Shown here one piece after another: positions 4,230-31,424 of a stretch of DNA of 35,945 bases. The stretch is taken from NCBI GenBank assembly GCA_016744535.1, contig JADGEE010000022.1, positions 1 through 35,945 on the forward strand. The letters are read 5' to 3'. The first letter of the stretch is position 1, and every line of letters starts with the position of its first letter. The stretch comes from Campylobacteraceae bacterium (lineage in GTDB: Bacteria; Campylobacterota; Campylobacteria; Campylobacterales; BB28). Both the position numbers and the translations under genes were made by a program. The notes beneath the pieces were generated by a model, which was given only the letters and a program-made list of their open reading frames with translations, did no database searches and was not told where the DNA came from.

Positions 4230-4270
4230 AATGAACTACAACCCTCTATTTTTATTTAATTTTATATTAA

Positions 4271-4288
4271 ATAAGTTTGAATATAGCT
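4271..4288 (-). promoter_or_regulatory. Possible promoter of the kinase-receiver pair
   Basis: On the minus strand a TATATT (4285-4280) preceded by TTTTAGC and followed by CAAACT sits about 50 bases before the kinase ATG. The same GCTATATT...CAAACT arrangement is seen at the nuoA promoter. Another TATAAA (4266-4261) is an alternative -10. No -35 is evident. Confidence 0.35.
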
Positions 4289-4338
4289 AAAATTAATAAA
4301 AATTATATAATTTAACTATTGATTAACATAAATTTTAT

Positions 4339-4344
4339 ATAATT
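4339..4344 (+). promoter_or_regulatory. Probable -10 of exbB-exbD
   Basis: TATAAT 28 bases before the exbB ATG, with an AAGG Shine-Dalgarno (in GAAAGGC) between. A second TATAAT lies at 4306-4311; both sit in copies of TTATATAATT (4303-4312 and 4336-4345), 33 bases apart. I did not see a convincing Fur box, although exbBD are often iron-regulated. Confidence 0.45.
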
Positions 4345-4372
4345 AATTTTATTTTTGAAAGAAAGGCTTTAG

Positions 4373-4900
4373 ATGGATTTTGCGTTTATGGAATATATCG
4401 AAAAAGGTGGAGTAATTATGTATGTACTATTTGCCTTAAATTTTATAGGTTATCTCTTAATGTTATCAAGTTTTTTACTCTTAATTTATTCAAAATTTAA
4501 TAAATCAAACATAATAGAATCTATACTTAAAAATCAAAGTTATGAAGTAAAAACAGAAATAAGTATAAAAATTTTCAAAGACGAACTAACATCTAAAATT
4601 AAATCTATGGAATTTGGTTTAAATACAGTTAAAATTATAGCTACAATTTCACCACTACTTGGACTTTTAGGGACAGTTATAGGAGTTTTTACATCTTTTG
4701 ATGCAATAAGCAAAAGTGGTTTAGAAGACCCATCAGTTTTTGCAGAGGGAATTTCAGTTGCATTAATTACAACTGTTGGCGGTTTAATTGTCGCAATTCC
4801 ACACTACATAGGATATAACTTTTTAATTGGAACTGTTGATGCTTTAGAGATTGAACTTGAAAAAGAGTTGTTTAAAGAGTATTTTGGAGTTAATAGGTGA
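4373..4900 (+). CDS. exbB: ExbB/TolQ/MotA-family proton channel protein
   Basis: Inner-membrane proton-channel subunit of 175 residues, short like other ExbB proteins. It shows a membrane helix near residues 16-39, then a cytoplasmic segment, then the family core: [18 protein letters not shown] (second helix) and [18 protein letters not shown] (third helix). The downstream exbD overlaps its stop codon (GTGA), so the two are translationally coupled. ExbB-ExbD use the proton motive force to drive TonB at the outer membrane, but no tonB or receptor gene is in the window. TolQ is the alternative; the short length and immediate ExbD partner favour ExbB. Confidence 0.85.
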
Positions 4901-5280
4901 AAAGAAGAGAGAGTTTAAATCCAGATCTTACTCCACTTATTGATGTTGTATTTTTACTTTTAATATTTTTTATGGTTTCAACTGTATTTAAAAAAGAAGA
5001 TTTAGCACTACTTTTAAATTTACCAAAAGTGTCAGAAGCAAAATCAGAAATTGAACAAAAAGAGATAAATTTAGAATTAAATGAAAAAGAGTTAGCTTAC
5101 AATGGTAAAAAATTAACTTTTATAGAGTTAAATAATAGACTTAATTTAATCACTAAAAAAGATGCACCTATTATTGTTAGAATTGATAAAGAGGTTAAAT
5201 ATAGTAGAATTATAAAACTATTTGAACTATTACAAAATAATAATTTAAATAATTTAGCTTTAATAAATGAGGAAAAATAA
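4897..5280 (+). CDS. exbD: ExbD/TolR-family biopolymer transport protein
   Basis: 127-residue partner of ExbB with an N-terminal anchor helix (about 12-30, in [17 protein letters not shown]) carrying the conserved membrane aspartate D16, and a periplasmic domain (about 45-127). It starts at GTG 4897, inside the exbB stop (GTGA), with GGAG seven bases upstream; no ATG lies near the N-terminus, so the GTG is accepted. The periplasmic domain ends in a charged, asparagine-rich tail. TolR is the alternative. Confidence 0.87.
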
Positions 5281-5342
5281 ATAGTTATCAATTTTAAATA
5301 ATCAATCAAAAATAAAACTTTATTTTATAAAAATTAGTATAT

Positions 5343-5348
5343 TATAAT
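5343..5348 (+). promoter_or_regulatory. Probable -10 before the GGDEF-EAL gene
   Basis: TATAAT in an AT-rich 103-base gap after exbD, 35 bases before the ATG at 5384; AAGG precedes that ATG. Because the GGDEF-EAL stop overlaps the dnaE start, this promoter may also transcribe dnaE. No -35 is visible, as is usual in this phylum. Confidence 0.4.
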
Positions 5349-5383
5349 AAATAATACTTTTAATTAATAAAAAGGCTTTCAAT

Positions 5384-14216: not shown

Positions 14217-14248
14217 ACAAATCAGAGGGTTAAAAACCACTGATTTGT
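14217..14248 (-). terminator. Hairpin at the end of the nuo operon, overlapping the nuoN stop
   Basis: A perfect nine-base inverted repeat, ACAAATCAG (14217-14225) with CTGATTTGT (14240-14248), encloses an inner GGTT/AACC stem with a three-base loop. The nuoN stop codon (14232-14230) lies inside the loop. Read on the minus strand, the hairpin is followed by TTACTTTTAATT, a weak U-tract. Read on the plus strand, it starts 10 bases after the REC-kinase stop but has no T-run behind it. It probably ends nuo transcription and may block convergent read-through. Confidence 0.6.
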
Positions 14249-15720
14249 ACATGATGGGTAATAATATCAAGAAGTGGATTTACTAAGAAAATAGAAGCAA
14301 GAACTACTATTGCTGAAAATCCAATAATTGTTTTGAGAGTATTTGACGCATTTTTTACATATACTGTTCCATCATTTTGAGATGGTTCTTTAAATAACAT
14401 ATATATGATAAGTTTAAGATAATAATATCCTGCGATTGCACTATTTAATACCATTACAATTGCAAGTCCAATAAAACCTGCATTTACAACAGAACTAATT
14501 AAATACATTTTACCCCAAAATACTGCAAATGGAGGAACTCCAGCTAAACTTAACATAAATAGAGCCATAATTAAAGCACCCATTGGCATAATATGGATCA
14601 TACCAGCAAATTTTTCGTAAGGGTGGTCATATCTAACATCAAATACATTTTTACCTTTATGTCTTGATACCCAAAGCATTGTAAATGCTCCAAGGTTTGT
14701 AAACATAAATAGTATCCAGTATAAGAAAACTGCACTATTTGATTGCGTTGTTCCAACTAAAATAGCTGCCATTACAAAACCAGCGTGTGCGATTGAGCTA
14801 AATGCTAACATTCTTTTCACATCTTGTTGGACTAATGCTAAAATATTCCCAACAGTCATTGTTATAATTGTAGTAATTAATAAAATATCTTGAACCCAAG
14901 TTACACCTGAATTAATGAAAAATTCAAAAAATCTTATTGCAACTACAAAACCAGCAATTTTAGGAACTACTGACATATATCCTGCAAGTGCGGCTGAACT
15001 TCCCTCATAAACATCAGGTGTCCAAGTATGAAAAGGTACAATAGATAATTTAAACCCTAATGCACCTATCATCATTACAACTGATAAAATAATAAATGGC
15101 ATTGAAGCAAACTCATTAGCAGTTAAAACTTCACCTATTTTATGAATTTCAACACTTCCAGTTAATGCATAAAGAATCATTACACTAAAAGCGTAAAATC
15201 CAGCAGCTAATGCACCCATTGTAAAATATTTAATTGCAGCTTCAAATGATTTAGCACGATTGTGCATTGCAATTAGAGTATAAAGTGCTAAACTTGCTGT
15301 TTCTAATCCAATAAAAATTAAAATCAAGTTATCACTTGCAACCATAAATTGAAAACCTGCTATCATAAATAAAAATAGTGCAAAAAATTCTGGATAACTA
15401 AATTCGTGAAACCTTTTTGAAGTTAAAGCAAGTGGGATAAATAATATTGATGCTACTAAAATTACTGCTTGTCCTAAAAATGCAATACCATCAATTAACA
15501 TTACATCAAAAAAGCCTCTTGTTCCACCTACATAACTAATTACTGCACCTAAGTCTATTACAATAAATAAAATAGTTAGCATAGTATATAGAGTTTTTGA
15601 TAAATCTTTTTTAAATAAATCAATAACTAAAATAGAAAGCCCACCTACTATTGCAATAATCATAGGAGCAAGAGAAGCTAAATTAAGAGCTTCTACATCA
15701 ATGTTAATTGGCTCTATCAT
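14230..15720 (-). CDS. nuoN: NADH-quinone oxidoreductase-type complex I subunit N
   Basis: Antiporter-like membrane subunit of 496 residues with about 14 helices, last gene of the operon. Family signatures are [17 protein letters not shown] (conserved helix-5 glutamate) and [17 protein letters not shown] with SVVPKIAGF, the charged residues of the proton path. The start ATG overlaps the nuoM stop (ATGA). Length and order are normal. The terminator hairpin is built over its last codons (QISGF). Confidence 0.96.
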
Positions 15721-17240
15721 TTTCCTACCTCCTCAATTTTTCCATTAAAAAACTCTTTTGCTTCTTCAGTTTGTGCTTTATTTTGCATAAAAGTTACTAA
15801 CTCTTTAACGCTAGTATCAATTGGTCCTAAAACTGGCTTTGGATAAACCCCTAACCATACTACAACTAAAACAAGTGGAATAAATGCTGTTATCTCTTTT
15901 TTATTTAAATCTTGCAAATTCTTATTAGCTGAATTTGTAACTTCACCAAAAAATGATTTTTTATAAAGACTTAACATATAAACTGCACCTAAAATAATAC
16001 TAGTTCCAGCAAGTAGTGTTATAGTATGAGACACTTTATAGAAACCAACTAAACTTAAAAACTCACCAACAAAACTCATAGTAAGTGGTAATCCAACTGA
16101 AGCCATAAGCATAATTCCAAATACAGTTGCATAAAGAGGCATTACTGAAGCTAATCCTCCAAAATCACTCATCATTTTAGTGTGTCGTCTATCGTAGATT
16201 ACTCCAACTAACATAAATAGAGCTCCACTTACGACACCATGAGATAACATTAAGAAAATTGAACCACTAATACCCTCAACATTTAGTGCAAATGTACCTA
16301 TCATAATGATACCCATATGAGAAACTGAACTATAAGCAATAACTTGTTTCATATCTTTTTGTGCGTAAGCTACCATTGCAGTATAGATAACCATAATAAG
16401 TGATAAAATTGCAATTGGTATTATAAAATATACTGACGCATCTGGAAACATTGGAAGGGAAAATCTTATAAATCCATAACTTCCCATTTTTAATAATACC
16501 GCTGCTAGGATTACTGAACCAATTGTTGGTGCTTGTCCGTGAGCGTAAGGTAGCCAAGTATGAAATGGGAACATTGGAATTTTAATTGCAAAACCGATAA
16601 AAAATGCAATAAATAACCAAATTTGAGTACCAAAAGGTAGAAGTAAATTATGCCATTCAAGTATTGAAAAACTCCAAACACCTGTCACTTCGTGATATGC
16701 AAATGCCATATAAAGCATACCTACAAGCATAATCAATGAACCCGCAAATGTGTATAAGAAAAATTTAACTGCAGCATAAATTCTAAGATTACCACCCCAA
16801 GCACCAATGATATATAACATTGGAACAAGTGAAAGCTCCCAAAATAGATAAAAAATAACTGCATCTAACGCAACAAAAACACCAACCATCGTCATTTCAA
16901 GAAATAGAAGTGTAATGATTAAGTTTTTAATATTTTTTTTCTCACTTAATGAAATTAAACCTATAAAAGTCATAAAAGTTGTTAAAATAACTAAAAATAG
17001 ACTTATTCCATCAACACCTAAGTTATAACTAATTCCAAAATTTGCAATTATTGGAGCAAATTCAGTAAATTGCATTCCACCATTATGAGTGTCAAACATT
17101 AACCATAGCCAAAGAGATAAAAGAAGTTCTATAAAAGTTACAGCGACTCCATAAACTCTTATTCCCTCTTTAGAGACTAAAAAGCCAAGAACTCCAGCAA
17201 CAGCTGGAAAGAATATTAAAATTGTTAATAAATGATCCAT
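15717..17240 (-). CDS. nuoM: Complex I subunit M
   Basis: Antiporter-like proton-pumping subunit of 507 residues. Visible signatures are [19 protein letters not shown] with the key glutamate, [19 protein letters not shown] with the helix-7 lysine, and [12 protein letters not shown]. The C-terminus ends in a hydrophilic tail of about 30 residues. I use ATG 17240, with AAGGGG seven bases upstream, and not the TTG one codon earlier. It lies 11 bases after nuoL and overlaps nuoN. Confidence 0.96.
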
Positions 17241-17251
17241 CAAAATTCCCC

Positions 17252-19111
17252 TTACCTAATCGAACTATTAAGTAGAATTGCTAATATAGTTAAGATAATA
17301 ATTCCAACTACCATCCATCTTAGCATTTTAGATAAGTTCCCACTTTGAATAACTCTTGTTTTATCACCAGTTGCATATATTGTTTTAGCAATTGCATCAA
17401 CAGTTGCATCTACAACTTTTACATCAATTTGTTTCCATGCAATATTTGAGAGAACTAAATATGGAGTTGTAATTAAAACTTCATATATTTTTGGAATATA
17501 GTATTGATTATCTAACAGTTTATATAAGAAACTATTTTCTAACTTTTTACTAAAACCACCTGCATTATATTTATATACGGCAAATGCGATACCTGCAAGT
17601 GCAATAGCCGAAGTTATAAGTATAAGCATAATAAAGGTTGAACTTGCTACATGAGGTTCTACTCCTGGGAGTACAAATTTTACAAGCTCTAAAAATTGAT
17701 GCTCAAACCACCCTGCAATTATCGCTAAAACTCCAAGAGGTGCCATTGCAATTAATACAAATTTATGAGATTCGTGTGGGTTTAATCCAAACTCTTTATA
17801 ATTCTCTTTTCCAAAAAATACAAGCATAATTAATCTAAAGCTATAAAATGCTGTTAAACCAGCAGTTACCCATAATACAAACCATAAAATATATTGATGT
17901 TCACCAAAAGCAACTTCAAGTATTTTATCTTTTGAAAAGAAACCTGCTAATGGAAAAATTCCTGCTAATGCTACTGATGCAATAATCATTAAAATAGCAG
18001 TCCATTTCATAGTATTGTAAAGACCACCCATTTTTTTGATATTTAACTCATCGTGCATTGCGTGCATAACATTTCCAGCACCTAAGAATAGAAGTGATTT
18101 GAAAAATGCGTGAGTTACTAAATGAAATAGTGCAATCCAATAAGCCCCAAGTCCAGCTGCTACAAACATATATCCTAATTGCGATAGTGTCGAATAAGCA
18201 ATAATTCTTTTTAAATCATTATTCACTAATGCCATAGTTGCTGCAAAAATTGCTACAAATGCACCAAGAGTTGCAATAAATACTCCAACTTCTGGAATTA
18301 AATCATAAATTGGATTCGCTCTAATTATTAGATAAACCCCAGCTGTAACCATAGTAGCTGCGTGAATTAATGCTGAAACTGGAGTTGGTCCCTCCATTGC
18401 ATCTGCAAGCCAAGTATGAAGTGGAAATTGTGCTGATTTACCCATAGCTCCAATAAATAAGAATACTCCTATCCAAACTAGAGTTGTATGACCTAATTCA
18501 GGTGCAATTGTAAATACTTCATCATATTTTAAGCTTCCTGTATGCCAAAATATTAAGAATATACCAATTAACATTCCTAAATCTGCTATTCTGTTCATAA
18601 TGAATGCTTCATTTGCAGCCCAACTGGCAGAATGTTTGTGATACCAATGCCCAATTAACAACCAAGAACAGAGACCAACACCTTCCCAACCAATAAATAG
18701 ACCTAAAAAGTTATCACTCATAACTAACACCATCATTGAAAAAACAAATGCTGAAAGATATGAAAAATATCTATTAAAACCTTTATCGTGTTCCATATAT
18801 CCAATTGAATATACATGAACAGCGGTTGATACTATTGTAACTACTGACATCATTGTTACTGAAACTTGGTCAGCTACAAAACCAAAAGAGACACTAAAAT
18901 CCCCTGCCGTAATCCAATCCATTAATTCAACATGGATAACTGCCCCATCTTTTACAGCAAAAAGTAAAATCAGTGAGCTAACCATAGAGATTGCTAAAAG
19001 TGCTGAAGTTACTAAACCTGTAATTAAATTTTTTGGTTTAGCTCCAAACATAGCAGCAAAAAGCGAACCTACAAGAGGAGCAAATAGTGCAATATATACG
19101 AGTTTCTCCAT
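17252..19111 (-). CDS. nuoL: Complex I subunit L
   Basis: Distal proton-pumping antiporter-like subunit of 619 residues, the usual length including the C-terminal lateral helix. Key features are E143 in FIGWEGVGLCSWLLIG, K224 in GAMGKSAQFPLHTWL, the stretch DAMEGPTPVSALIHAATMV, and IIAYSTLSQLGYM. The C-terminus (about 560-619) has the long amphipathic helix and a final membrane anchor. ATG 19111 has AAAGG seven bases upstream, overlapping the end of nuoK. Confidence 0.97.
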   Translation of the reverse strand: MEKLVYIALFAPLVGSLFAAMFGAKPKNLITGLVTSALLAISMVSSLILLFAVKDGAVIHVELMDWITAGDFSVSFGFVADQVSVTMMSVVTIVSTAVHVYSIGYMEHDKGFNRYFSYLSAFVFSMMVLVMSDNFLGLFIGWEGVGLCSWLLIGHWYHKHSASWAANEAFIMNRIADLGMLIGIFLIFWHTGSLKYDEVFTIAPELGHTTLVWIGVFLFIGAMGKSAQFPLHTWLADAMEGPTPVSALIHAATMVTAGVYLIIRANPIYDLIPEVGVFIATLGAFVAIFAATMALVNNDLKRIIAYSTLSQLGYMFVAAGLGAYWIALFHLVTHAFFKSLLFLGAGNVMHAMHDELNIKKMGGLYNTMKWTAILMIIASVALAGIFPLAGFFSKDKILEVAFGEHQYILWFVLWVTAGLTAFYSFRLIMLVFFGKENYKEFGLNPHESHKFVLIAMAPLGVLAIIAGWFEHQFLELVKFVLPGVEPHVASSTFIMLILITSAIALAGIAFAVYKYNAGGFSKKLENSFLYKLLDNQYYIPKIYEVLITTPYLVLSNIAWKQIDVKVVDATVDAIAKTIYATGDKTRVIQSGNLSKMLRWMVVGIIILTILAILLNSSIR

Positions 19112-19114
19112 CTT

Positions 19115-19417
19115 CTAACCTTTCATACTTTGCAGACTATCAAGATTAATTGTACCTTTTCTTTTATACCAAAGAATAAGTAATCCAAGTCCAACCGCCA
19201 CTTCACTTGCCGCAACTGCAATTATAAAGAAGGCAAACATTTGACCAGTTAAATCACCATAGTGATTTGAAATAGCAGCTAATCCAATATTTACAGCATT
19301 TAACAAAATTTCTGTTGCAAAAAATAGCATTAATAAATTTTTTCTTCTAATAATACCAACTAATCCTATTGCAAAAAGGATTGATGATACTATTAAATAA
19401 TGGTTTAAAGTTATCAT
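19115..19417 (-). CDS. nuoK: Complex I subunit K
   Basis: Three-helix membrane subunit of 100 residues, standard length. It has the conserved membrane glutamate in FFATEILLNAVNIGL, and the second acidic position in AASEVAVGLGLLIL. The start overlaps the nuoJ stop by four bases (ATGA) and has AAGGGGG six bases upstream. Confidence 0.96.
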   Translation of the reverse strand: MITLNHYLIVSSILFAIGLVGIIRRKNLLMLFFATEILLNAVNIGLAAISNHYGDLTGQMFAFFIIAVAASEVAVGLGLLILWYKRKGTINLDSLQSMKG

Positions 19418-19977
19418 TTTTTACCCCCTTTTGCAAACTCTTCTTCCTCTATCTCTTCATCTGTAAGTAGAGTTAAACTTCTATCCATTTTTTTACCTGC
19501 TAAAATAATTCCTGATATCATAGCTACAAGTAACATTACAGCAGCTAACTCAAATGGAACTAAATATTTTGTAAATAAAACAATTCCAACATCTTGAGGA
19601 TTTGACTCACCCATTGGATAAAGTGCAGTTACATTATCACCTATTAATGGAAATGAAACCATTATTACAAGTAAAAGTGCTACTGCCCCACTTAATAAAA
19701 AAACCATCTTTGGATTTTCAATTTTTTCTTCAATATCTTTAGTTGTATCTACAAACATCATACCAAATGCGTATAGTGCAACAATTGCCCCACTATATAC
19801 GACTATTTGTACAACTCCTAAAAAATCTGCATTTAATAAAAAGAAAAAACCAGAGATAAAAATCATCCCTGCAGCCATTGCACTCATAGCATAGAGTGCA
19901 TTTTTACTCATAACTACTATGATAAACATAGCAGTTGTTAAACCTGCAAAGAGATAAAAAGCCATTGCTTCAAACAT
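19414..19977 (-). CDS. nuoJ: Complex I subunit J
   Basis: Membrane subunit of 187 residues with five predicted helices. The third helix region GVVQIVVYSGAIVALYAFGMMF matches the family's conserved pi-bulge segment. A charged loop (DTTKDIEEKIENPK) and an acidic C-terminal tail (about 170-187) follow. It has AAGGG seven bases before the ATG, and lies 15 bases after nuoI, the widest gap inside the operon. Confidence 0.95.
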   Translation of the reverse strand: MFEAMAFYLFAGLTTAMFIIVVMSKNALYAMSAMAAGMIFISGFFFLLNADFLGVVQIVVYSGAIVALYAFGMMFVDTTKDIEEKIENPKMVFLLSGAVALLLVIMVSFPLIGDNVTALYPMGESNPQDVGIVLFTKYLVPFELAAVMLLVAMISGIILAGKKMDRSLTLLTDEEIEEEEFAKGGKK

Positions 19978-19992
19978 TTTTAACCCTTTTTT

Positions 19993-20574
19993 TTAATATG
20001 CAAGAGGAGTTTTCTTGACAAATTTACTCGCATCTTTACTAAGTGCACCAAAACCTGGAAACTCTTTTTGCTCTTTTAAAAAGTCAATTGGTGTGAGCAT
20101 ATCATCTTTTAGTGCAAAATGAGCTCTCTGTTCTGAAGAGTTCTCATATCTATCACCGTGTACGATTGCAAGTTCAGGACAAACCTCTGCACAATAACCA
20201 CAGAAGATACATCTTCCTAGATTTATTGTATAGTCACTTACCTCTTTTCTACCATTCTCATCAACTCTTGTGTCCATCTTTATACAATTACTTATACAAA
20301 TTTTTTCACAAAGCCCACACCCAATACATCTCTCATTACCACTCTCAATTAATCTTAAAAGTTTATGAACGGCTCTATATCTAGGGCTAATTGGTAATTT
20401 TTCCAATGGATATTGAACAGTATGAATATTGAATTTAATCATCTCTCTAAATACTATCCAAAGTCCAACAAAAAGTTCACCCTTTAGTGTTCTTGATACA
20501 ACTTGCGTAAACTTAGCCCAACCACTCTCTGGAATTGGGTCAATTTCTAATAATTTATAATTTTTATCTCCCAT
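19993..20574 (-). CDS. nuoI: Complex I subunit I, 2x[4Fe-4S] protein
   Basis: Peripheral-arm iron-sulfur subunit of 193 residues that passes electrons from NuoG to cluster N2 in NuoB. Two ferredoxin motifs are complete: [15 protein letters not shown] and [12 protein letters not shown], the ligands of clusters N6a and N6b. The N-terminal amphipathic segment and a basic patch before the clusters are typical. AGGAGA precedes the ATG by five bases. Confidence 0.96.
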
Positions 20575-20583
20575 TACTTTCTC

Positions 20584-21579
20584 CTATAATGTCATTATAA
20601 CAACACCTGTAATCAAGATGTTGATTATTGCAACTGGCATTAATACTTTCCAACATAACCACATTAATTGGTCAGGTCTAATATGAGGCCAAGCTGCCCT
20701 AGTCCATAAAAAGAAGAATATTAAAAATACAACTTTAAGTAAAATCGCAATTCCACCTGGAATAAACCATAAATCATTAAATCCACCTAGGAAAATAATA
20801 CTTGTTAAAAATGCTACTGTAAACATATTGGCATATTCACCAATAAAGAAAAGTCCCCATCTCATACCAGAATACTCAGTTGCATAACCTGAAATCACTT
20901 CAGCTTCGTGCTCAAGTAAATCAAATGGTGTTCTATTTGTTTCAGCAAATCCAGCAATTAAAAATAGAATAAATGCTATAGGTTGTGTCCATAAAATCCA
21001 ACCAGTAATTCCACCATCTTGATAATTGTTAATATCAATTAAAGATAGTGAGCCAATCATCATTAATGGAGATAAAATTGCTAGACCTGATACAACTTCA
21101 AAACTTAAAAGTTGAATTGCAGCTCTAGCACCACCAAGTAGTGACCATTTATTACCTGAACTTAAACCTGCAAGAAGAGGTGCATAAATACTAATTGATG
21201 CAACTCCAATTACATATAAAAGTCCAACATTGATATCTGAAATAATTGGAGTTACTGTATAACCAAAAATTTCAAATGCTGGAAAAAATGGAATTGCTGC
21301 CATTGCAGTAAAAGCTGATGCTGCTGCAATTACTGGAGCAATTTTAAAAATTGGCTTTACAGCATTTTGAGGAACAATATCCTCTTTTGTAAAGAGTTTT
21401 ATCCCATCAGCCAAAACTTGTAAAAGCCCAAATGGACCAACATGCATAGGACCTAATCTTCTTTGCATAAATGCTAAAACTTTTCTTTCAGCATAAGTTG
21501 TAAAACCTGCTAGTGCTGAAAAAATAAGTAAAACAACTACTATTTTTATAATTGTTTCTATTATGTAGCTAGTTTCCAT
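20584..21579 (-). CDS. nuoH: Complex I subunit H
   Basis: Membrane subunit of 331 residues that forms much of the quinone chamber at the junction of the two arms. Signatures are RRLGPMHVGPFGLLQVLADG near the N-terminus, the acidic loop AETNRTPFDLLEHEAEVISG, and EYSGMRWGLFFIGEYANM. About eight helices. It lies 3 bases after nuoG2; AAAGGTG precedes the ATG. Confidence 0.97.
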   Translation of the reverse strand: METSYIIETIIKIVVVLLIFSALAGFTTYAERKVLAFMQRRLGPMHVGPFGLLQVLADGIKLFTKEDIVPQNAVKPIFKIAPVIAAASAFTAMAAIPFFPAFEIFGYTVTPIISDINVGLLYVIGVASISIYAPLLAGLSSGNKWSLLGGARAAIQLLSFEVVSGLAILSPLMMIGSLSLIDINNYQDGGITGWILWTQPIAFILFLIAGFAETNRTPFDLLEHEAEVISGYATEYSGMRWGLFFIGEYANMFTVAFLTSIIFLGGFNDLWFIPGGIAILLKVVFLIFFFLWTRAAWPHIRPDQLMWLCWKVLMPVAIINILITGVVIMTL

Positions 21580-21582
21580 CTT

Positions 21583-24027
21583 CTACACCTTTTTAATTTT
21601 AACTTCACTAAATCTATAATCATCAAATAGAATTAAACTATCTACATTTTTATCAAATGTAGGAATATAAGGAATATTTCCTTTTAATTTAGAATCTATG
21701 CTGATTTTTAATTTTATAGTGGCTTTTTCATTTGAAAGTTCTACTACATCACTCTCAATTAAAGCATTTGCTTCTAAAAACTCTGCTGAACAGAAGAGTT
21801 TTGCCTCATCTTTGAGATTAGTAGTGTTATTTGTGAATTCACTAAATTGTAGTAGTGGATTTGCTAAATAAATAATACTATTTCTCATTTCAATTAACTC
21901 TACATTCTCTACATTGTCATTAGTTACAATATCAAAAGAATCAATTATATAACCTCTATTATCTTCCATTGAATTACTAAAAGAGTTATCTAAACTATCA
22001 AATTTTACAGTTTTAAAACCTTTTGAAATTGGTAATTTATCTGTATAATTTATAGTGTATTTTTGATTAAGTCCAAGTACATTTGCAATATCATTTAAAA
22101 TATAACCATTATACTCTAATGCTACATTTGTAGGAATAACTCTCTTATCAACTGATACAAAAGTTCCTTCTTGTTGATTAAGTGCTGGTATATCTAAATC
22201 TCCATCACCCAATGCACTTAATTTAAAGTTACCATTTGCATTATAACCGATTGTATATTCACCACATTTTTCATCTAAATCACAAATTAAACTTACACCT
22301 AAAGTGTTCGTTTTAGATGGAATTATTAAAATATTAAAATCTGTATATCTATCAATTAAACCAGCTAATTTTGCTAAATTTTTAGATTTTGGATGAGTTA
22401 TTAAATCATCTCCTAAAATCAAACTAAAATCATCTTTTTTAGTAAGTAATTTTTGAAGTTTTGCATCAAAGCTGTCATCTAAACCGATAATATCAGCTAA
22501 TTTACTAATTTCAACTTCAACCTCTTTTTCAACTTTTTTAGGAACAACTTTACTAACTTCTTTCTCTACACCATTTTCATCTTTAACTTTTTCTACAATA
22601 GTTTCTCTAATAGTTTCGATTACTTTTTTAACTCTTTTTTCTTTAAAGCTATTTAAGTATTCAGTAATATTTTTTGGTAACTCTTTTCCAAAAAATTCAA
22701 GAATTAAATATAAGATATACTCTTCAATTAAAGGTTTGTGATATATTGGAACTATATTTTTTGACAATCCCTCAACTACACTATCTCCTAATGGATGAAA
22801 ATATAGTCCTGCACCTTTATTTAAAGTTAAAGCATTATTTAATGCATATCTAGCATTCGGAGCATCATTTTTGATGAAGCTTCCAACAGAAATTACAAAG
22901 TTACTCTTGGCAACACTTTTTAAATCTGTACTATATAAAGTTTTACCACTTGTAGATGAATAGTTATCTAAGAATTTTTTAAAGTTTAAAGCATCTTTAT
23001 TAACTAATTTATAACCATATTTTTCTTTTAATCTTTGTAAAATTAGTGCTTCTTCATTTGTAATATAACTTGAAAAATTGATAGTATCAGCTTTTTTAAA
23101 TGCTTCTATTGAATTATTAAAAGTATTTTCATCTTTTCTACTTACTCTATTTTCAAAATCATAACCAAATCTACCAGCACCACAAAGAGATACATAATGA
23201 AAATCATTAACTACTCTAAAAATTTTCTTTTCAGGATTCTCAATTGAGCTATTTTTTACATCATACTTAATTTGACATCCCATACTACAATGTGAACAAG
23301 TTGCTGGAATCGATGTTAAATCCCAAGCATTTGACTTATATTGAAAATCATTTGTAACTAATGCCCCAACAGGACAAACAGATACACACTCTGCACAATC
23401 ACTACAATCTAGCTTATCACCACTTACTGTACCAATTAAATTTTTATTCATCTTATTCCAGATAGCATAAGAATCTTTTGGCATACTCTCTTTAAATTTA
23501 GGATTTATCTCTTCACCATTTCTTTTTACAGTTTTAAGAGCAGCGTCACCTATCATATCTTTACAGACACTAACACATCTTTCACAAACTATACAAAGAG
23601 CTGGGTCATAGTGAATAATACCCCAATCTTGAGCTGGTTTAAAAGTATCTTTAATAGAATAACTTTGTGAATCAACTTTAAGCTCGAGAGTATAATTTTG
23701 TAATTCACACTCACCACTCTGATCACAAACACCACACTGTAATGGATGATTTATATCATAAACTTCCATTATAGCTTTTCTCTCTTCTTGAATTTCTTCA
23801 TTATGAGTAGTGATGTTCATACCATCTTTAGCTTTTGCATTACAACTATATGCTCTTTTACCATCAATATCTACTAAACATAACCTACAAGCAAGTGTAG
23901 GAGAACATCTAGTCAAATAGCAAATAGCGGGAATAAAAATATCATTTGCCCTTGCTATATTGAGTATAAACTCACCTTCTTTAGCTTTAATCTCTCTTCC
24001 ATCGATATGTAAAGTTACTTCTGCCAT
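21583..24027 (-). CDS. nuoG: Complex I subunit G, second copy (long)
   Basis: Iron-sulfur subunit of 814 residues. Cluster ligands are all present: [2Fe-2S] C36, C47, C50, C62; N5 H94, C98, C101, C107; [4Fe-4S] C145, C148, C151, C155 and C208, C211, C214, C218; and N7-type C244, C247, C251, C282. The rest is a molybdopterin-oxidoreductase-like fold that in NuoG has lost its cofactor. It is a paralogue of the gene just upstream and matches it along almost its whole length. It differs by about 20 extra residues before the third [4Fe-4S] motif and a Lys/Glu/Val-rich insert at about 461-530. It lies one base after the other nuoG; its Shine-Dalgarno is weak (GAG). Confidence 0.93.
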   Translation of the reverse strand: MAEVTLHIDGREIKAKEGEFILNIARANDIFIPAICYLTRCSPTLACRLCLVDIDGKRAYSCNAKAKDGMNITTHNEEIQEERKAIMEVYDINHPLQCGVCDQSGECELQNYTLELKVDSQSYSIKDTFKPAQDWGIIHYDPALCIVCERCVSVCKDMIGDAALKTVKRNGEEINPKFKESMPKDSYAIWNKMNKNLIGTVSGDKLDCSDCAECVSVCPVGALVTNDFQYKSNAWDLTSIPATCSHCSMGCQIKYDVKNSSIENPEKKIFRVVNDFHYVSLCGAGRFGYDFENRVSRKDENTFNNSIEAFKKADTINFSSYITNEEALILQRLKEKYGYKLVNKDALNFKKFLDNYSSTSGKTLYSTDLKSVAKSNFVISVGSFIKNDAPNARYALNNALTLNKGAGLYFHPLGDSVVEGLSKNIVPIYHKPLIEEYILYLILEFFGKELPKNITEYLNSFKEKRVKKVIETIRETIVEKVKDENGVEKEVSKVVPKKVEKEVEVEISKLADIIGLDDSFDAKLQKLLTKKDDFSLILGDDLITHPKSKNLAKLAGLIDRYTDFNILIIPSKTNTLGVSLICDLDEKCGEYTIGYNANGNFKLSALGDGDLDIPALNQQEGTFVSVDKRVIPTNVALEYNGYILNDIANVLGLNQKYTINYTDKLPISKGFKTVKFDSLDNSFSNSMEDNRGYIIDSFDIVTNDNVENVELIEMRNSIIYLANPLLQFSEFTNNTTNLKDEAKLFCSAEFLEANALIESDVVELSNEKATIKLKISIDSKLKGNIPYIPTFDKNVDSLILFDDYRFSEVKIKKV

Positions 24028-24028
24028 A

Positions 24029-26257
24029 TTACTCTACCACTTTATGGATTTTTACTATCTGATAACGATATGAGAATAGCAAATCATTACTTAAGCTTAA
24101 ATCAAAGGTTGGAGCTAATGCAATAGTACCTTTTAGGTCTCTATCAGTCTTAAAAACTCTTTTTAATCTTTGATTTTTAAACTCAACTTCTACTAAATCA
24201 TTATCTTTAACTTTTGCAACTTTTGCAAATTGCTCTGAACCAATTATCATTGGTTCTCCTCTTAACTGATGTGCCATATTTGTAACTGGTGAAAATTGAA
24301 GAGTAGGTTCACATCTATAAACAACCATACCATTGAATTCAGGTAAATTTTCAATTGCTTCTATAGTTTCATCAACTTTACTACTTAAGTTTTGTAATGA
24401 GTAACCTCTAACTTCTTCTCCATCGTTTGTAAAATAGTTATCTAAATTGTCAAATTCAATTTCTCTAAAGCCTTTACTTAATGGAAGATCTTTTGTATAT
24501 CCAACTGTATACTTTTTTGTTAAATCAAGTTCATTTGCAATATCATTTAAAACATAGCCATTAAATTTAACTGCCACATTTGTTGGAACTACTTTTTTAT
24601 CAATTGAAGTAAAAGTACCTTCTTGCTGATTAAGTGCAGGTATTTCTAAATGACATTCTTCGTAATTACTTAATTTAAAGTTACCCTCAACATTATAGCC
24701 AATTGAATAATTACCATCACTTTCATCTAAATCACAAATAAGGCTAACTCCTAATGAGTTAGTTTTAGGTGGAATAATTAAAGTATTAAAATCTGTATAC
24801 TTTTCAATTAATCCAACAAATTTTGCAATATTTTTAGCTCTTGAGTGATTGATTAAATCTTCACCTAAAATTAGAGTAAATCTCTTTTTTCTGACTCTTT
24901 TTTTACTAAGTATTTCAATCTCTTCTTCACCAATATTTGATTCAGCACTTAAATATCCTAAATCTAACTCTTTAAAGTAACTCTTTAAATTTTCAGGTAA
25001 TTTATCTAATTCTATTAATTCATTTGCTAAAGAGGCGATAACTCCCTCTTCTGAACCAACTTCATATTTTACAAATTGAGTTATAATTGGTTTTAAAAGT
25101 TCATCTTCAATTGGATGAATATAGATAATTTCAGCACCATTATTTTTTTGAGCAGAATTTAAAGCATATCTAATCATTGGATTATCAGTTGATATTCTTG
25201 AACCAAAGACTATAATATAATCACTCTCTTTCACATCATTAATAGAAGAACTATATAAATTTTTAGAGCTTATTGAGGTATAAGCATTTAAAAACTCTGA
25301 ATAAGCTTTAGCTTCAGGGTTAATTAACTTATATCCGAACTTCTCTTTTAATTTTTGTAAAATAAGTGCTTCTTCATTTGTTATCAGACTTGAAAATTTA
25401 ATAGTATCAGCTTTCTTAAAAGCTTCTATTGAACTATTAAAAGCATTCTTATCTTTTGAATTAACTATATTTTCAAAATCATAACCAAATCTACCAGCAC
25501 CACAGAGTGAATTAAATTCAAACTCATTTGTAACTCTAGCAATTTCATTATCTTTAACTTCATAATTTAAGTTACAAACACTACTACAATGTGAACAACT
25601 TGCAGGTATTTTTGAAAGCTCCCAAGAGTTTACATTATATTTAAAATCACTACTAATTAAAGCACCAACTGGACAGACAGCTATACATTCACCACAATAT
25701 GTACAATCTAATGTTTCACTATTTTTTGGAATAATAGTTGAGCTATATCCACCTACTAAAACTTCGATAGCATCATCGCCAATTACTTGATTACATGTGC
25801 TCACACATTTTTCACATAAAATACAAAGACTTGAATCATATTGGATTTTAGCCCAATCTTTTATATCTCTTTTTATATCTTTTGTAGCAAAGCTTTGCTC
25901 TTTTATACCAAATTCCAAAGTTTTATTTTGTAAATTACATTCTCCACTCTTATCACATACTCCACACTCTAATGGGTGATTTACATCATAAAGTTTCATA
26001 ATATTTTGTCTATATTTAAATAAATCTTCAGAGTCTGTTGTAACTTTTGCATTTTCTGTTGGAGGAGTTTGACAACTTAATATAAACCCATTAACACCCT
26101 CAACATCTACAACACAAAGTCTGCAAGAAGAGATAGGTTTTACTTTAGTTAAATAGCACATTGTAGGAATATAAAGACCATGTCTTCTTGCAACTTGAAG
26201 AATACTCTCTCCCTCATTTGCATAAACTTCTCTATTATCTATAAAAAATTTAACCAT
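24029..26257 (-). CDS. nuoG: Complex I subunit G, first copy (short)
   Basis: Iron-sulfur subunit of 742 residues. [2Fe-2S] ligands C34, C45, C48, C62; N5 H94, C98, C101, C107 in HPLECGVCDKSGEC; [4Fe-4S] ligands C145, C148, C151, C155 and C185, C188, C191, C195; N7-type C221, C224, C228, C252. As in the second copy, the whole set is intact, so neither looks like a decaying duplicate. It follows the NuoF/GltD-like gene by 9 bases and has AAGGAAA before the ATG. It is the copy next to the electron-input gene, so it may be the one that contacts it (inference). Bacterial complex I normally has one NuoG. Confidence 0.93.
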   Translation of the reverse strand: MVKFFIDNREVYANEGESILQVARRHGLYIPTMCYLTKVKPISSCRLCVVDVEGVNGFILSCQTPPTENAKVTTDSEDLFKYRQNIMKLYDVNHPLECGVCDKSGECNLQNKTLEFGIKEQSFATKDIKRDIKDWAKIQYDSSLCILCEKCVSTCNQVIGDDAIEVLVGGYSSTIIPKNSETLDCTYCGECIAVCPVGALISSDFKYNVNSWELSKIPASCSHCSSVCNLNYEVKDNEIARVTNEFEFNSLCGAGRFGYDFENIVNSKDKNAFNSSIEAFKKADTIKFSSLITNEEALILQKLKEKFGYKLINPEAKAYSEFLNAYTSISSKNLYSSSINDVKESDYIIVFGSRISTDNPMIRYALNSAQKNNGAEIIYIHPIEDELLKPIITQFVKYEVGSEEGVIASLANELIELDKLPENLKSYFKELDLGYLSAESNIGEEEIEILSKKRVRKKRFTLILGEDLINHSRAKNIAKFVGLIEKYTDFNTLIIPPKTNSLGVSLICDLDESDGNYSIGYNVEGNFKLSNYEECHLEIPALNQQEGTFTSIDKKVVPTNVAVKFNGYVLNDIANELDLTKKYTVGYTKDLPLSKGFREIEFDNLDNYFTNDGEEVRGYSLQNLSSKVDETIEAIENLPEFNGMVVYRCEPTLQFSPVTNMAHQLRGEPMIIGSEQFAKVAKVKDNDLVEVEFKNQRLKRVFKTDRDLKGTIALAPTFDLSLSNDLLFSYRYQIVKIHKVVE

Positions 26258-26266
26258 TTGCTTTCC

Positions 26267-28267
26267 TTAGACTGCTACCATAGCAATATAGTAACATCTC
26301 ATACACCTTTGTGCTTCTACTATGGCTTCTTGTTGCGTAAAACCAAAATTAACTTCTCTATCATTATCAATTCTTTTCTCAACTGATAACTTTTCACTAA
26401 CTTGGCGTTTTAATCCAGGCAACCAACCAGTAACTTTTTCATTTTTATCATAAACTCGAAGTTTTCTTAAATGATCTTCCATAATTTCGTTATTATTCAA
26501 AGATGCACTACCAGTTGTCAAATACCTAGTCATAACAGAAGCTGCTCTTTTTGCTTGACCAACTGCATTTACAATTGTCATAGGACCATATTCACAATCC
26601 CCTGCTGCAAAAATACCATCTCTATTAGTCATATAAGTTGTACCGTCAGTTTTAATTGTTCTCCAAGATGTTTGATTTATTTCCCACTCTTTTGGTAAAT
26701 GTGATAAATCCGCATCTTGAGAAACTGCAGGAATTAAATAGTCAGCATCTATAAAAAAATCAGCTCCATCAATTTTTTGAAGTTGTGGTCTTCCACCATC
26801 TTTACCTTGAACTAATTCAAACTTATTAACTTTTAACTGTTTTAAATTATCACTCTTATCAGTTATAATATCTTCAATTGCAGTTTGAAAAATAAATTCA
26901 ACTCCCTCTTCTAAGGCTTCGTGATACTCTTCATAAGATGTATTATTAATAATTGTTTTATCATCTCTACGATAGAGCATTACAACTCTTTTTGCTTTTG
27001 CTCTAATTGCACATCTAACGACATCCATAGAGGTAAATCCACCACCAACGCAAACAATAGTTTTTTCAGTTAAATCAACACTTTCACCAATTCCATACTT
27101 ATCGTGTAAATTTATTTGGTCTAAAAATGGAATTGCAGGCCAATAACCATTAATTTCAGGTCTCTCATTATTTGCTCTAATTTTTTTAGAAATTCTAGTT
27201 CCAGTAGCAATTAAAATTGCATCATAATCTTTTTCAAATTGTACCATCATATCAGCTGTGACTTTAGTATTTACAATAAAGTTTACACCCAAAGATTTAA
27301 CTAAATCAATATCTTGATTATATTTACCAATTGGCATTCTATACTCAGGTACTCCAATAGCAACCTCTCCACCTAAAACAGGAAGTTCTTCATAAACATC
27401 ACAATCAACTCCATCTATTGCTAAATAATAAGCACCTGTAAGCCCTGCTGGACCTGAACCTATAATTGCAACTTTTTTACCAATTTTAGGTTTTGGCTCA
27501 GTTGGGTGAAACCAATTTAAGCTGTGAGTATCTTCATAATCTGCTCCAACTCTTTTAAGTTCCATAATTGAAATTGGCTCATCTAAATTCGTTCTTCTAC
27601 AAGCATCTTCGCACGGATGTGGACAGACTCTTCCACAGCTGTGTGCTAGTGGCATAGTTTCTCTTGTAGATTTTAGTGAATCATCAAGTCTTAAATCTTT
27701 TACTTCTTCGATATATGCAGGAATATCAACGTGTGCTGGACACATATCCATACAAGGAGCAGTTACTTTTGTGAAATATTCATTATCTTTTTGATTATAA
27801 TCTTTAGATGGTTTTTTATCTTCAATTAAAGCTGAAAAATCATCTTCAAAATACTCAATTAAATTTAAAATTGGGACAGGAACTGTTTTTCCAATTTCAC
27901 ACTTACTTGTATTTGTCATAGTTGAAGCTGTCTCTTTTAGACTCTCTAAGTCACTTAGCTCACCTTCACCTCTTGCAATTTTATCAAGTAAGTCGTAAAG
28001 AATCTTTCCACCCCATCTTCCAGGTGCACATCTTCCACAAGCTTCTGAATAGATTTGATATTGTGCAGCGTACTCTGTTGCTAATCTTACAACATCTACT
28101 TCTGCATCAAAAAGTGCAAATCCATTCCAACCTATAAAAGCTTTAGATGGAGTGTTTGGATTATAGTTCTCTGGCAATTTAAAACTAGCTTCTTGCCAAC
28201 TACTACTCGGCTTATCTCTATTATCTACTAATTCATCTTGCCAAGTAGAGAAATAGACTTTACTCAA
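26267..28267 (-). CDS. NuoF-remnant/GltD-like NADPH flavoprotein fusion
   Basis: A 666-residue protein in the nuoF position. Residues about 70-145 match the NuoF C-terminal Fe-S domain: EACGRCAPGR, then TSKCEIG 43 residues on, as around cluster N3. Its ligand set is C77, C80, G83, C123, so the third cysteine is glycine; the FMN/NADH Rossmann part of NuoF is absent. Residues 165-660 are a complete glutamate-synthase-small-subunit/NfnB-type module: Fe-S cysteines C172, C176, C211, C215, C219, C223; FAD motif GSGPAG (270-275); dinucleotide motif GGGFTSMD (408-415) with LYRR, typical of NADPH; AAGDCEYG near FAD; and a C-terminal CMRC. No glutamate synthase large subunit is nearby. It starts at TTG 28267 (next Met is residue 117), overlapping the previous stop (TTGA), with AGGAG six bases upstream. 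Likely the electron-input subunit of this complex I. Confidence 0.88.
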   Translation of the reverse strand: MSKVYFSTWQDELVDNRDKPSSSWQEASFKLPENYNPNTPSKAFIGWNGFALFDAEVDVVRLATEYAAQYQIYSEACGRCAPGRWGGKILYDLLDKIARGEGELSDLESLKETASTMTNTSKCEIGKTVPVPILNLIEYFEDDFSALIEDKKPSKDYNQKDNEYFTKVTAPCMDMCPAHVDIPAYIEEVKDLRLDDSLKSTRETMPLAHSCGRVCPHPCEDACRRTNLDEPISIMELKRVGADYEDTHSLNWFHPTEPKPKIGKKVAIIGSGPAGLTGAYYLAIDGVDCDVYEELPVLGGEVAIGVPEYRMPIGKYNQDIDLVKSLGVNFIVNTKVTADMMVQFEKDYDAILIATGTRISKKIRANNERPEINGYWPAIPFLDQINLHDKYGIGESVDLTEKTIVCVGGGFTSMDVVRCAIRAKAKRVVMLYRRDDKTIINNTSYEEYHEALEEGVEFIFQTAIEDIITDKSDNLKQLKVNKFELVQGKDGGRPQLQKIDGADFFIDADYLIPAVSQDADLSHLPKEWEINQTSWRTIKTDGTTYMTNRDGIFAAGDCEYGPMTIVNAVGQAKRAASVMTRYLTTGSASLNNNEIMEDHLRKLRVYDKNEKVTGWLPGLKRQVSEKLSVEKRIDNDREVNFGFTQQEAIVEAQRCMRCYYIAMVAV

Positions 28268-28497
28268 TCTATTCTCCTCTTAACGACTACTGTCCAATCA
28301 ACTTCATTAAATTTAAGAGAGTTCATTAATTGATGACCTGCCTCTTTGATTAAATCAGCACTCTTTTGAACAGGAGAAAAATCACCTATTTCAAACATAA
28401 ATATAGCAACATCTTCACTTGCTACATCTTTATTCAAAATTTCCATCATTCTGTCATAGAAATTATCTTTTAAATGTCTTAAGTCATATCTTTGCAT
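28264..28497 (-). CDS. Small NuoE-position protein of Campylobacterota complex I
   Basis: 77-residue soluble protein in the nuoE position. It has no cysteine at all, so it cannot carry the [2Fe-2S] cluster of true NuoE (about 160 residues). Size and place match the small proteins of the nuo operons in Campylobacter (Cj1575c) and Helicobacter (HP1264); from memory the latter binds FMN. Visible features are a basic N-terminus (MQRYDLRHLKD), an acidic centre and a final strand WTVVVKRR. Its stop overlaps the TTG start of the flavoprotein gene, and AGGGG stands before its ATG. A docking or flavin-carrying role is inference. Confidence 0.82.
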   Translation of the reverse strand: MQRYDLRHLKDNFYDRMMEILNKDVASEDVAIFMFEIGDFSPVQKSADLIKEAGHQLMNSLKFNEVDWTVVVKRRID

Positions 28498-28506
28498 CTC
28501 TTACCC

Positions 28507-29733
28507 CTATCTATCAACTTCACCAAAGACAATATTCGTAGAGCCGATGATTGTTACAACATCAGCTAAATAGTGTCCTGGTAATAAATCTTGAAGAATT
28601 CCTGTATGATAAAAACTTGGAGCTCTAACTTTTAATCTATATGGATAAGCTTCACCAATTGAATTTATATAAAAACCAAGTTCACCTTTTGGTGATTCAG
28701 TTGGTACATAAACTTCACCAATAGGTGGCTTCATTCCTTGAGTTACTAAAGTGAAGTGCTGCATAAGTGAATAGTTTTGTGTCATCATTTGCTCTTTTGA
28801 AGATGAGATATACTCAGGCATTTCAGCCATTATCTGTTTGTTAGTATCTTTATACATTGGAATTAACTGTTTTATTATTCTAACACACTGTTTCATCTCT
28901 TCCATATAAAGTTTATATCTTCCATAGCTATCACAAGTATCACTTATTGGAATATCAAATTCAAGCTCATTATATAATTCATACGGCTCCTCTTTTCTAA
29001 TATCCCACTGGATTCCACTTCCTCTTAACATTATTCCACTACAGCCCCAACTCTTAGCCATTTCAGGAGATAAAACACCAACGTCTTCAAGTCTCATTTT
29101 CCAAATTCTATTTTTATCCAATAGTGCTTCATAATCTTTAATATCATTTGGAAATTTATCTAAAAATGCATCCAATCTCTCTAGCCAACCATCTGGTAAA
29201 TCAAGTGGAACTCCACCAATTCTAACAGCTGAATGTGTAAGCCTTGCACCACAATAATCTTCCATTAAATCCATTGCAAATTCTCTCTCTCTAAAACAGA
29301 AGAGAAATACACTCATAGCACCAACATCTAATGCGTGTGTTGCAAGCCAAAATAGATGTGAAATTATTCTATTAAGTTCAAGTAATATTGTTCTTATAAC
29401 TTGCGCTCTTCTAGGAACTTCAGCTCCAATTAATTTTTCAACTCCCACAGCAAAAGCATAATTATTTGCACTAGCAGCAACATAATCCATTCTGTCAGTT
29501 GTAGGCAAAAATTCATTATAAATCATATTTTCTGCCATTTTCTCCATTCCACGGTGAAGATAACCTACATCGGGAATTGCTTTAGTTACTAGCTCACCGT
29601 CAAGCTCTAAAATAAGTCTAAGCTGACCGTGAGCTGAAGGGTGTTGAGGACCAAAGTTGATAACCATTGTATTATCATCTCTGTCAAAAACTAAATTTTC
29701 ATAAAATGGCTTTAATCTATTTACTTGTTGCAT
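28507..29733 (-). CDS. nuoD: Complex I subunit D (49-kDa type)
   Basis: 408-residue peripheral subunit that forms the quinone site together with NuoB and NuoH. Conserved positions seen are [10 protein letters not shown] near residue 30 (quinone-site histidine), [10 protein letters not shown] (quinone-site tyrosine), [12 protein letters not shown], and the C-terminal [12 protein letters not shown]. It is separate from nuoC, unlike the fused nuoCD of E. coli. AGAAGG lies seven bases before the ATG, and nuoC ends 4 bases upstream. Confidence 0.97.
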
Positions 29734-29737
29734 TTTA

Positions 29738-30544
29738 TTACCTTCTCTCTTTTAACTGTTTTGCTTTATCTAAGTTCATCTTTTCAATTAAAAAGACTCC
29801 CTCTTCTTCGTGATAAGTTATATCAGTATCAGGCTCAGCCACTTCTCTTAAATTTGTACCTTTTGGAACTTCATGTCCAATTCTTGAAAATCTCTCAGTA
29901 TCATATCTATCAATCATTGCACCATCACGATTTTCAGGTCCGATAATTTTCCTTGCTTCTTTTCCAAAAATTTTATCAACTTCATACCACTTGGCAAACT
30001 CATCACCCTCAAGTGGATAAGTTTTTCTTAAAGGATGACCTTGCCAATCATCAGGCATTAAGATTCTTTTAAAATATGGATGGTTTTTAACTTCTATTCC
30101 AAACATATCGTACATCTCTCTCTCTGCCCAATCTGCACTTCTAAAGAGTTTTTCAACACTCTCTATCGATTCATCTTCTTTAATATACATTTTAACTCTA
30201 GCTCGTTTTACTTTTGAAGTTGAAAGCATTTGATAAAATACTTCAAACTCTCCTTTTTGTGCAAGCCAATCAATAGCACTCATCTCTGTTAAAAAATCAT
30301 AATTAAGTTCCTCTTTAAAAAACTTAATTACACTCTTATTTTCTCTAGGATTTATATATACAACTAATTGATCTAATTGGATATAAGTCTCTTTGATCTC
30401 AAATTTTGCTTTTAACTGCTCAACATCTTTTGAAAATATTGAATCGCTAGAAATATCTTCTTTATCTACTTTTGGTGCAACCCAAAACCTATCACTATAA
30501 TAAGGTTTTGCTTGAGTGTTTTTCTTATCCTTGTAAGCTCTCAT
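29738..30544 (-). CDS. nuoC: Complex I subunit C (30-kDa type)
   Basis: 268-residue peripheral subunit. The family signature is complete: [18 protein letters not shown], then [18 protein letters not shown] (about 135-175). An N-terminal extension of about 45 residues and a C-terminal part of about 85 residues flank the core. The start overlaps the nuoB stop by one base (TAATG), so the two are coupled. Confidence 0.96.
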
Positions 30545-31053
30545 TACACTAACCTCTTTGGTTTTTGTCTTTTAAAAACAGACTCTTTTCTTATTTTTCT
30601 CTGCAACATTAAAACTGCATATTGAAGAGTTTCAGGTCTTGGTGCACAGCCTGGTAGATATAAATCAACAGGAATTACACGATCAACTCCTTGAACTGTC
30701 GCGTAAGTGTTAAACATACCACCAGTATTTGCACAACTTCCCATAGAAATTACCCATTTTGGCTCTGCCATTTGGTCATAAAGTCTTCTAATAAATTCAG
30801 CGTGTTTTTTAGTTAGAGTACCAGCTACAACCATAACTTCTGCTTGTCTAGGACTTGCTCTAAAGATTGTTCCAAATCTATCAAAATCATACCTACTAGC
30901 TCCACTTGCCATCATTTCAATTGCACAACAAGCTAAACCGTAAGTTAAAGCCCACAGTGAGTTGCTTCGTCCCCAATTTACTAATTTATCAACAGTAGTT
31001 AAAACTACTGGAAGTCCACCCTCTTGTAAGTAATTTACTTGATGCTGTGCCAT
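30544..31053 (-). CDS. nuoB: Complex I subunit B, cluster N2
   Basis: 169-residue subunit holding the terminal [4Fe-4S] cluster N2, which reduces quinone. The ligands are all present: the adjacent pair in [10 protein letters not shown], then [10 protein letters not shown] and LPGCAPRPE. The start lies 19 bases inside the end of nuoA, with AGGAG seven bases before the ATG. Confidence 0.98.
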
Positions 31054-31424
31054 TCAAGAGCTCCTTTTTTCCACGCATAGATAAAACCTATTGCTAATAA
31101 AATTATGAATAAAATCATTTCAACAAATCCAAACCATCCAAGTAATTTAAAATCTATTGCCCACGGAAACATAAAAATAATCTCTACATCAAATAGAATA
31201 AAAAGTAGAGCAAATAGATAAAATTGAGCTGAGATTTTGTTTGGCTGTTTTGTAACCTCAGGACCACACTCATAAATTGTAAGTTTTAATTTTTCTGTAT
31301 CAAGTCTAGCTAATGCCCGACTTGCTAATCTTGCAAGAACTGTCGTACCTATGAAAGATACAGTTGTTACAATAAATAGAACAAAAACTCCAAAATATGG
31401 ATGTGAAAAATCCATGTGTTCCAT
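31035..31424 (-). CDS. nuoA: Complex I subunit A
   Basis: 129-residue membrane subunit with three helices, first gene of the operon. Signatures are [11 protein letters not shown] in the loop after the first helix and [19 protein letters not shown] in the second helix. AAGGGG lies six bases before ATG 31424 and the promoter region is directly upstream. Its end overlaps nuoB. Confidence 0.96.

Follow-up and report, generated by a model that had tools for sequence, protein, structure and literature searches.

Tandem NuoG genes are widespread in predicted complex I operons of Campylobacterota and occur together with an unusual putative input subunit

How Campylobacterota feed complex I is a puzzle, the standard NADH subunits being missing. 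The canonical 14-subunit complex I of Escherichia coli and Thermus thermophilus provides the reference: its NuoA, B, C, D and H-N recur in the same order in the operon described here, as do the N1b, N5, N4 and N7 sites of its NuoG. This operon lies in a window of 35,945 nucleotides (the whole stretch of DNA that was analysed) from a Campylobacteraceae bacterium. In contrast to the canonical enzyme, it encodes no NuoE, no NuoF FMN domain and two NuoG proteins, each with sites for an additional ferredoxin-type [4Fe-4S] cluster; Thermus-type NuoG is not known to carry this additional cluster. The complex of Aquifex aeolicus contains a single NuoG. This NuoG (PDB 7q5y) is the closest solved NuoG to G2, the second of the two copies in the window, and, in an alignment made with G2 only, it shows two CxxCxxCxxxC motifs as well.

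A flavodoxin-type complex I has been described in Campylobacter and Helicobacter. Cj1574 and Cj1575 of C. jejuni have been reported to function together with flavodoxin at this complex (PMC4178425), and HP1264 of H. pylori was reported to bind FMN (PMC6269979). This system (Cj1575/Cj1574, HP1264/HP1265) has in common with the window the operon, a 77-aa FMN-binding protein family and an orthologue of G2, but it differs in the loss of a protein that we call P3 and of the Fe-S half of the first NuoG copy, G1, and in its 'NuoF', which is probably a remnant of G1. The StnABC/NfnABC transhydrogenases (PDB 8oh5, 9bov, 9n5u) likewise combine a GltD-like FAD/NAD(P)H module with an Fe-S protein of the NuoG type, as the window does. 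In StnC, where both parts are fused, the GltD FAD module feeds the NuoG domain along a linear path (PMC10482914). Unlike the window operon, these enzymes are soluble and include a HydBC-like bifurcating module; HydBC-like (NuoE/NuoF-like) subunits do not adjoin the GltD-like module in the window operon.

In the window, a single, tightly packed operon on the minus strand runs from nuoA (31424) to nuoN (14230). NuoA, B, C, D, H, I, J, K, L, M and N are all present in order (assigned by Pfam, NuoI via Fer4), and the core of a complex I, namely NuoB, C, D, H and I with the antiporter-like NuoL, M and N, is thereby encoded in one operon. Neither a thioredoxin-like [2Fe-2S] NuoE nor the NuoF FMN domain PF01512 is encoded in it. 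Four genes, those of the 77-aa protein, P3, G1 and G2, separate nuoD from nuoH. Because the genes from the 77-aa protein to nuoH either overlap by 4 bp or are separated by gaps of 1-9 bp, this four-gene block is likely co-transcribed. The features are as follows.

31035-31424, minus strand: NuoA, first gene of the operon (PF00507, 7.6e-33)
30544-31053, minus strand: NuoB, N2 cluster (PF01058, 3.2e-28)
28507-30544, minus strand: NuoC and NuoD (PF00329 and PF00346)
28264-28497, minus strand: 77-aa protein at the nuoE position (PF16514, 3e-40; PDB 2lxr, 1.1e-24)
26267-28267, minus strand: P3, 666 aa, in place of NuoF (PF10589, PF14691, PF07992; PF01512 absent)
27788-28177, minus strand: N3-type domain of P3 with Cys ligands C77, C80 and C123 (CGRCxPG, 52/52 orthologues)
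26468-27775, minus strand: GltD-like module of P3 for FAD and NAD(P)H, with Cys for two [4Fe-4S] (domain and sequence comparison)
24029-26257, minus strand: G1, NuoG copy 1, 742 aa (NF006305, 886.6 bits; all ligands)
25472-26257, minus strand: Fe-S half of G1, residues 1-262, with N1b, N5, N4, the second ferredoxin-type cluster and N7 (ligand positions and conservation)
24737-25225, minus strand: C-terminal block A of G1, about residues 345-507, approximate limits (hmmsearch; retained in remnants)
24032-24355, minus strand: C-terminal block B of G1, about residues 635-742, approximate limits (hmmsearch; retained in remnants)
24514-24890, minus strand: stretch of G1 sharing about 80% DNA identity with G2 at 22060-22440 (blastn, 79.7% over 384 bp)
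21583-24027, minus strand: G2, NuoG copy 2, 814 aa (NF006305, 1170.7 bits)
23152-24027, minus strand: Fe-S half of G2, residues 1-292, with N1b, N5, N4, the second ferredoxin-type cluster and N7 (ligand positions)
14230-21579, minus strand: NuoH, I, J, K, L, M and N, i.e. the membrane arm and NuoI (PF00146, PF00499, PF00420, PF00361)
19993-20574, minus strand: NuoI, two [4Fe-4S], N6a and N6b (Fer4 domains; Cys motifs read from the sequence)

Pieces of a second, canonical NuoF/NuoG-type system, with genes distinct from G1 and G2, were found elsewhere in the genome of the window. A canonical NuoF/NuoG pair lies at 3255-5952 of locus L072 (G000:C16), with no further nuo genes seen adjoining; a lone fused NuoCD lies beside flhB-like DNA at 658-2316 of L077 (G000:C32) in the same genome, again with no further nuo genes adjoining. 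L073 (G000:C138) and L078 (G000:C101) hold NAD-reducing-hydrogenase-like genes (NuoE-, NuoF- and HoxU-like, with a NiFe hydrogenase) and a NuoC/NuoD-related hydrogenase-like cluster.

A preliminary description of this DNA had placed two tandem NuoG subunits at 21583-26257, which the adjacent open reading frames of G2 and G1 match exactly. Both frames are intact, and the two proteins are 44% identical over their length. Both exceed the cut-off of 591 of the NCBIfam NuoG equivalog NF006305, while their scores of 195.1 and 229.5 bits with the general model TIGR01973 fall below its cut-off of 470, so that G1 and G2 are divergent from the general NuoG model. The same description had credited each copy with a full set of ligands, comprising one [2Fe-2S], the His/Cys N5 site, two [4Fe-4S] sites and an N7-type site, and had seen no decay in either. 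Indeed, we located in G1 the ligands of N1b (C34/C45/C48/C62), N5 (H94/C98/C101/C107), N4 (C145/C148/C151/C195), the second ferredoxin-type cluster (C155/C185/C188/C191) and N7 (C221/C224/C228/C252), and in G2 the equivalents of them all. In relatives, the ligands of N1b, N5 and N4 do not vary in either copy (52/52 G1, 90/90 G2); those of the second ferredoxin-type cluster are invariant in 90/90 G2 and present in about 45 of 52 G1. The N7 ligands are kept in about 50 of 52 G1 and, in operons classified below as full or reduced, in 43/48 and 19/42 G2, respectively. This conservation reflects a conserved function rather than chance. The N7 ligands are gone from G2 in 23 of the 42 reduced operons, in several lineages. 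At one locus (L100, from 7945), G2 is found in two pieces, with 309 aa in the Fe-S part and 537 aa in the C-terminal part, owing to a frameshift or a real split.

Which proteins take the places of NuoE and NuoF? The 77-aa protein at the nuoE position is unrelated to NuoE and is a homologue of H. pylori HP1264. P3 is a fusion of an N3-type NuoF domain with the GltD-like module and, in both sequence and predicted fold, is nearest to NfnABC/StnABC. Its N3-type site has three Cys instead of four in every orthologue, Gly83 standing at the third Cys of the motif; the P3-to-G1 step would therefore proceed without an obvious standard cluster. An extra Cys of P3, Cys211, is likewise invariant. The AlphaFold model of P3 is of moderate confidence (pLDDT 73), with a weak Fe-S segment at 169-255. 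The best 80 relatives of P3 listed from named genomes all belong to Campylobacterota. At two loci (L115, L116), P3 has about 927 aa, some 250 aa above the usual length.

Is the tandem NuoG pair a common arrangement? We compared 95 nuo operons in genomes from 13 families of Campylobacterales, annotated with profile models built from a first set of loci; models and classes derive partly from the same loci, and hence the membership scores of the first set are not independent, while those of the later 60 regions are. In 52 of the 95, a few of them cut by contig ends, P3, G1 and G2 occur together (full operons). The other 43 are reduced: they lack P3 as well as the Fe-S half of G1 and encode G2 alone together with a protein of 230-343 aa. 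No intermediate, mixed operon was found among the 95. G2 was never the copy lost and is the sole full NuoG of the reduced operons. The window operon, with P3 and a complete G1, is of the full and not of the flavodoxin (reduced) type. In a search of 121 genomes, P3 occurred as a single copy wherever it was present, and the listed genomes with a reduced operon all lacked it. At 18 of the 19 named loci without G2 or G1, only 2.0-4.1 kb of contig remain downstream of the P3 start, which is too little room for both NuoGs. Judged from these operons, tandem NuoG is widespread in the predicted complex I of Campylobacterota and tied to P3 as an unusual putative input subunit. One locus with P3 and a single NuoG (L154) was considered as an intermediate and rejected: its NuoG (3425-5689) follows G1 as far as about residue 680 and G2 from there on, a chimera joined across a near-identical converted block, and we attribute it to assembly collapse or recombination. 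In one genome bin (G208), there are two reduced nuo operons that differ in their affinity (L095, L096), perhaps by mixed binning.

The protein of 230-343 aa, which sits between the 77-aa protein and G2 in the reduced operons, is a remnant of G1. In 43/43 cases, a model of the G1 C-terminal part outscored that of G2 (e.g. 5e-74 versus 5.7e-25), both models being built from full operons only. With hmmsearch, the remnants match two blocks of the 482-position G1 model, at about 75-237 and 365-480, and the middle is missing; the Fe-S half of G1 is covered by none of the 43. Structure prediction for a Campylobacter-type remnant gave a fold (pLDDT 95) similar to those of formate dehydrogenase H and Thermus Nqo3. 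At locus L060, the 77-aa protein equals HP1264 at all residues compared, and the remnant at this locus is thus, by gene order, HP1265. Assigned in this way, H. pylori HP1265 is a C-terminal G1 remnant, and the published gene order (PMC4178425) suggests the same for the Campylobacter 'NuoF' of the Cj1574 type. Campylobacter and Helicobacter would accordingly appear to have lost the P3 input and to have kept a cluster-free stump of G1 at the gene position labelled 'NuoF'. Among the open-access papers searched, we found no report of a tandem NuoG or of a NuoG origin of HP1265/Cj1574, and only unrelated papers on two NuoG or nuoG1/nuoG2, which does not establish priority.

On the operon tree, full and reduced operons interchange repeatedly. 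On a core-gene tree (NuoB, C, D, H and I), the full and reduced states require at least 7 changes, 8 on a second tree, and 7 when the one genome with two reduced operons is left out; a single reduced clade is rejected (p-AU 5e-6). The gene tree of the remnants requires at least 4 changes and does not speak firmly against a single origin (p-AU 0.056), so that one reduced version may have been transferred in some of these changes. Since the P3 gene directly adjoins the part of G1 that encodes the Fe-S half, one deletion could remove both without any need for a functional link, and their co-loss says less about function than would losses at two unlinked places. This contiguity does not explain why the C-terminal part of G1 was kept repeatedly. 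A mirror-tree comparison by distance correlation of G1 with P3 and of G2 with NuoI did not discriminate, G1 being no closer to P3 than G2 is.

In some genera, G1 and G2 also exchange sequence. In five loci of one family, f9 (L036, L037, L038, L074, L098), the two copies are homogenised at about residues 470-680 of G1, while their Fe-S halves are distinct. About 620 bp are 97.6-99.8% identical in DNA (blastn on L036, L038 and L098), with signs at the protein level in all five, which is recent gene conversion. The corresponding similarity in the window, which extends at 85% over 193 bp besides the stretch listed above, reflects either older gene conversion or strong constraint. As the homogenised stretch overlaps the middle that is absent from the remnants, we speculate that G1 and G2 share a common substructure there.

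From the observed gene content and order, ligand conservation, co-occurrence and homology of the remnants to G1, we infer a shared assembly, an order of the wire, a direction of electron flow and the identity of the donors. With a probability of roughly 0.6, we propose that G1 and G2 act in series within one complex I, G1 being the adapter between P3 and G2. G2 would occupy the canonical NuoG slot and pass electrons on to NuoI and NuoB; as the only full NuoG of the reduced operons, it most likely sits in the standard place next to NuoI. G1 would be peripheral and would take electrons from the FAD of P3, along its own clusters, into G2. Its C-terminal part persists in operons in which G2 is the only candidate for the NuoG slot, and thus G1 probably stands beside G2 in a place of its own; its clusters are invariant where P3 exists, which makes it most likely the conductor from P3 to G2. 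That a GltD module can feed a NuoG has a precedent in the linear path of StnC. In the flavodoxin-dependent lineages, P3 and the Fe-S half of G1 would have been lost and the C-terminal part of G1 kept as a structural or docking piece. The FMN-binding 77-aa protein may mark a second entry point, on G2, for flavodoxin or ferredoxin. We speculate, at a rather low likelihood, on a dual-port complex I with NAD(P)H exchanging electrons via P3 and G1 and flavodoxin or ferredoxin via the FMN protein and G2, in which one pump would link NAD(P)H, a low-potential carrier and quinone and, possibly by reverse operation or flavin-based bifurcation, provide autotrophic members with both NAD(P)H and reduced ferredoxin.

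The preliminary description had left the choice between an extended wire in one complex and two forms of complex I with different input partners; the former is favoured by our data and the latter disfavoured for this pair. Could G1 with P3 form an NAD(P)H-oxidising complex and G2 a flavodoxin- or ferredoxin-oxidising one, alternating on the same NuoBCD-membrane core? Each NuoG has complete N1b, N5 and N4 ligands and could serve alone, and both inputs are plausible. However, the C-terminal part of G1 stands beside an intact G2 in 43/43 operons without P3, where it would be useless if the two alternated in one slot, and the lost copy is never G2, so that we regard two such complexes as unlikely. 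The same persistence of the G1 part without P3 argues against P3 and G1 being a separate, soluble NAD(P)H oxidoreductase of the Stn/NfnABC kind that merely shares the operon. P3 does resemble the GltD part of these soluble enzymes (PMC10482914), but no StnAB/HydBC-type partner is encoded beside P3 and G1, and their genes lie inside nuoA-N in every case seen; we find this explanation quite improbable.

No more credible is a G1 that is mainly structural, its clusters forming a side branch while the electrons of P3 pass straight to G2. The part of G1 that always persists is indeed free of clusters, and a series arrangement of P3 and G1 is not required; yet the N1b, N5 and N4 ligands are invariant in all 52 G1, which speaks against G1 being structural only, and the Fe-S half is missing exactly where P3 is, though contiguity could explain the latter. 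Finally, G1/G2 gene conversion still occurs in some genera, as fits a plain duplication kept for dosage or by drift. At 44% identity, however, G1 and G2 form two orthologous groups whose order and ligands are conserved across families, which leaves such a duplication hardly believable.

In summary, the comparison of nuo operons offers a testable answer to the question of how Campylobacterota may feed complex I: in many lineages, an NAD(P)H module would be wired to it through a second NuoG. Where this input appears to have been lost stepwise, as in Campylobacter, Helicobacter and others, a stump of NuoG would remain at the nuoF position. If G1 and G2 share a complex, its two NuoG would stand in series and give this complex I an unusually long chain of clusters.
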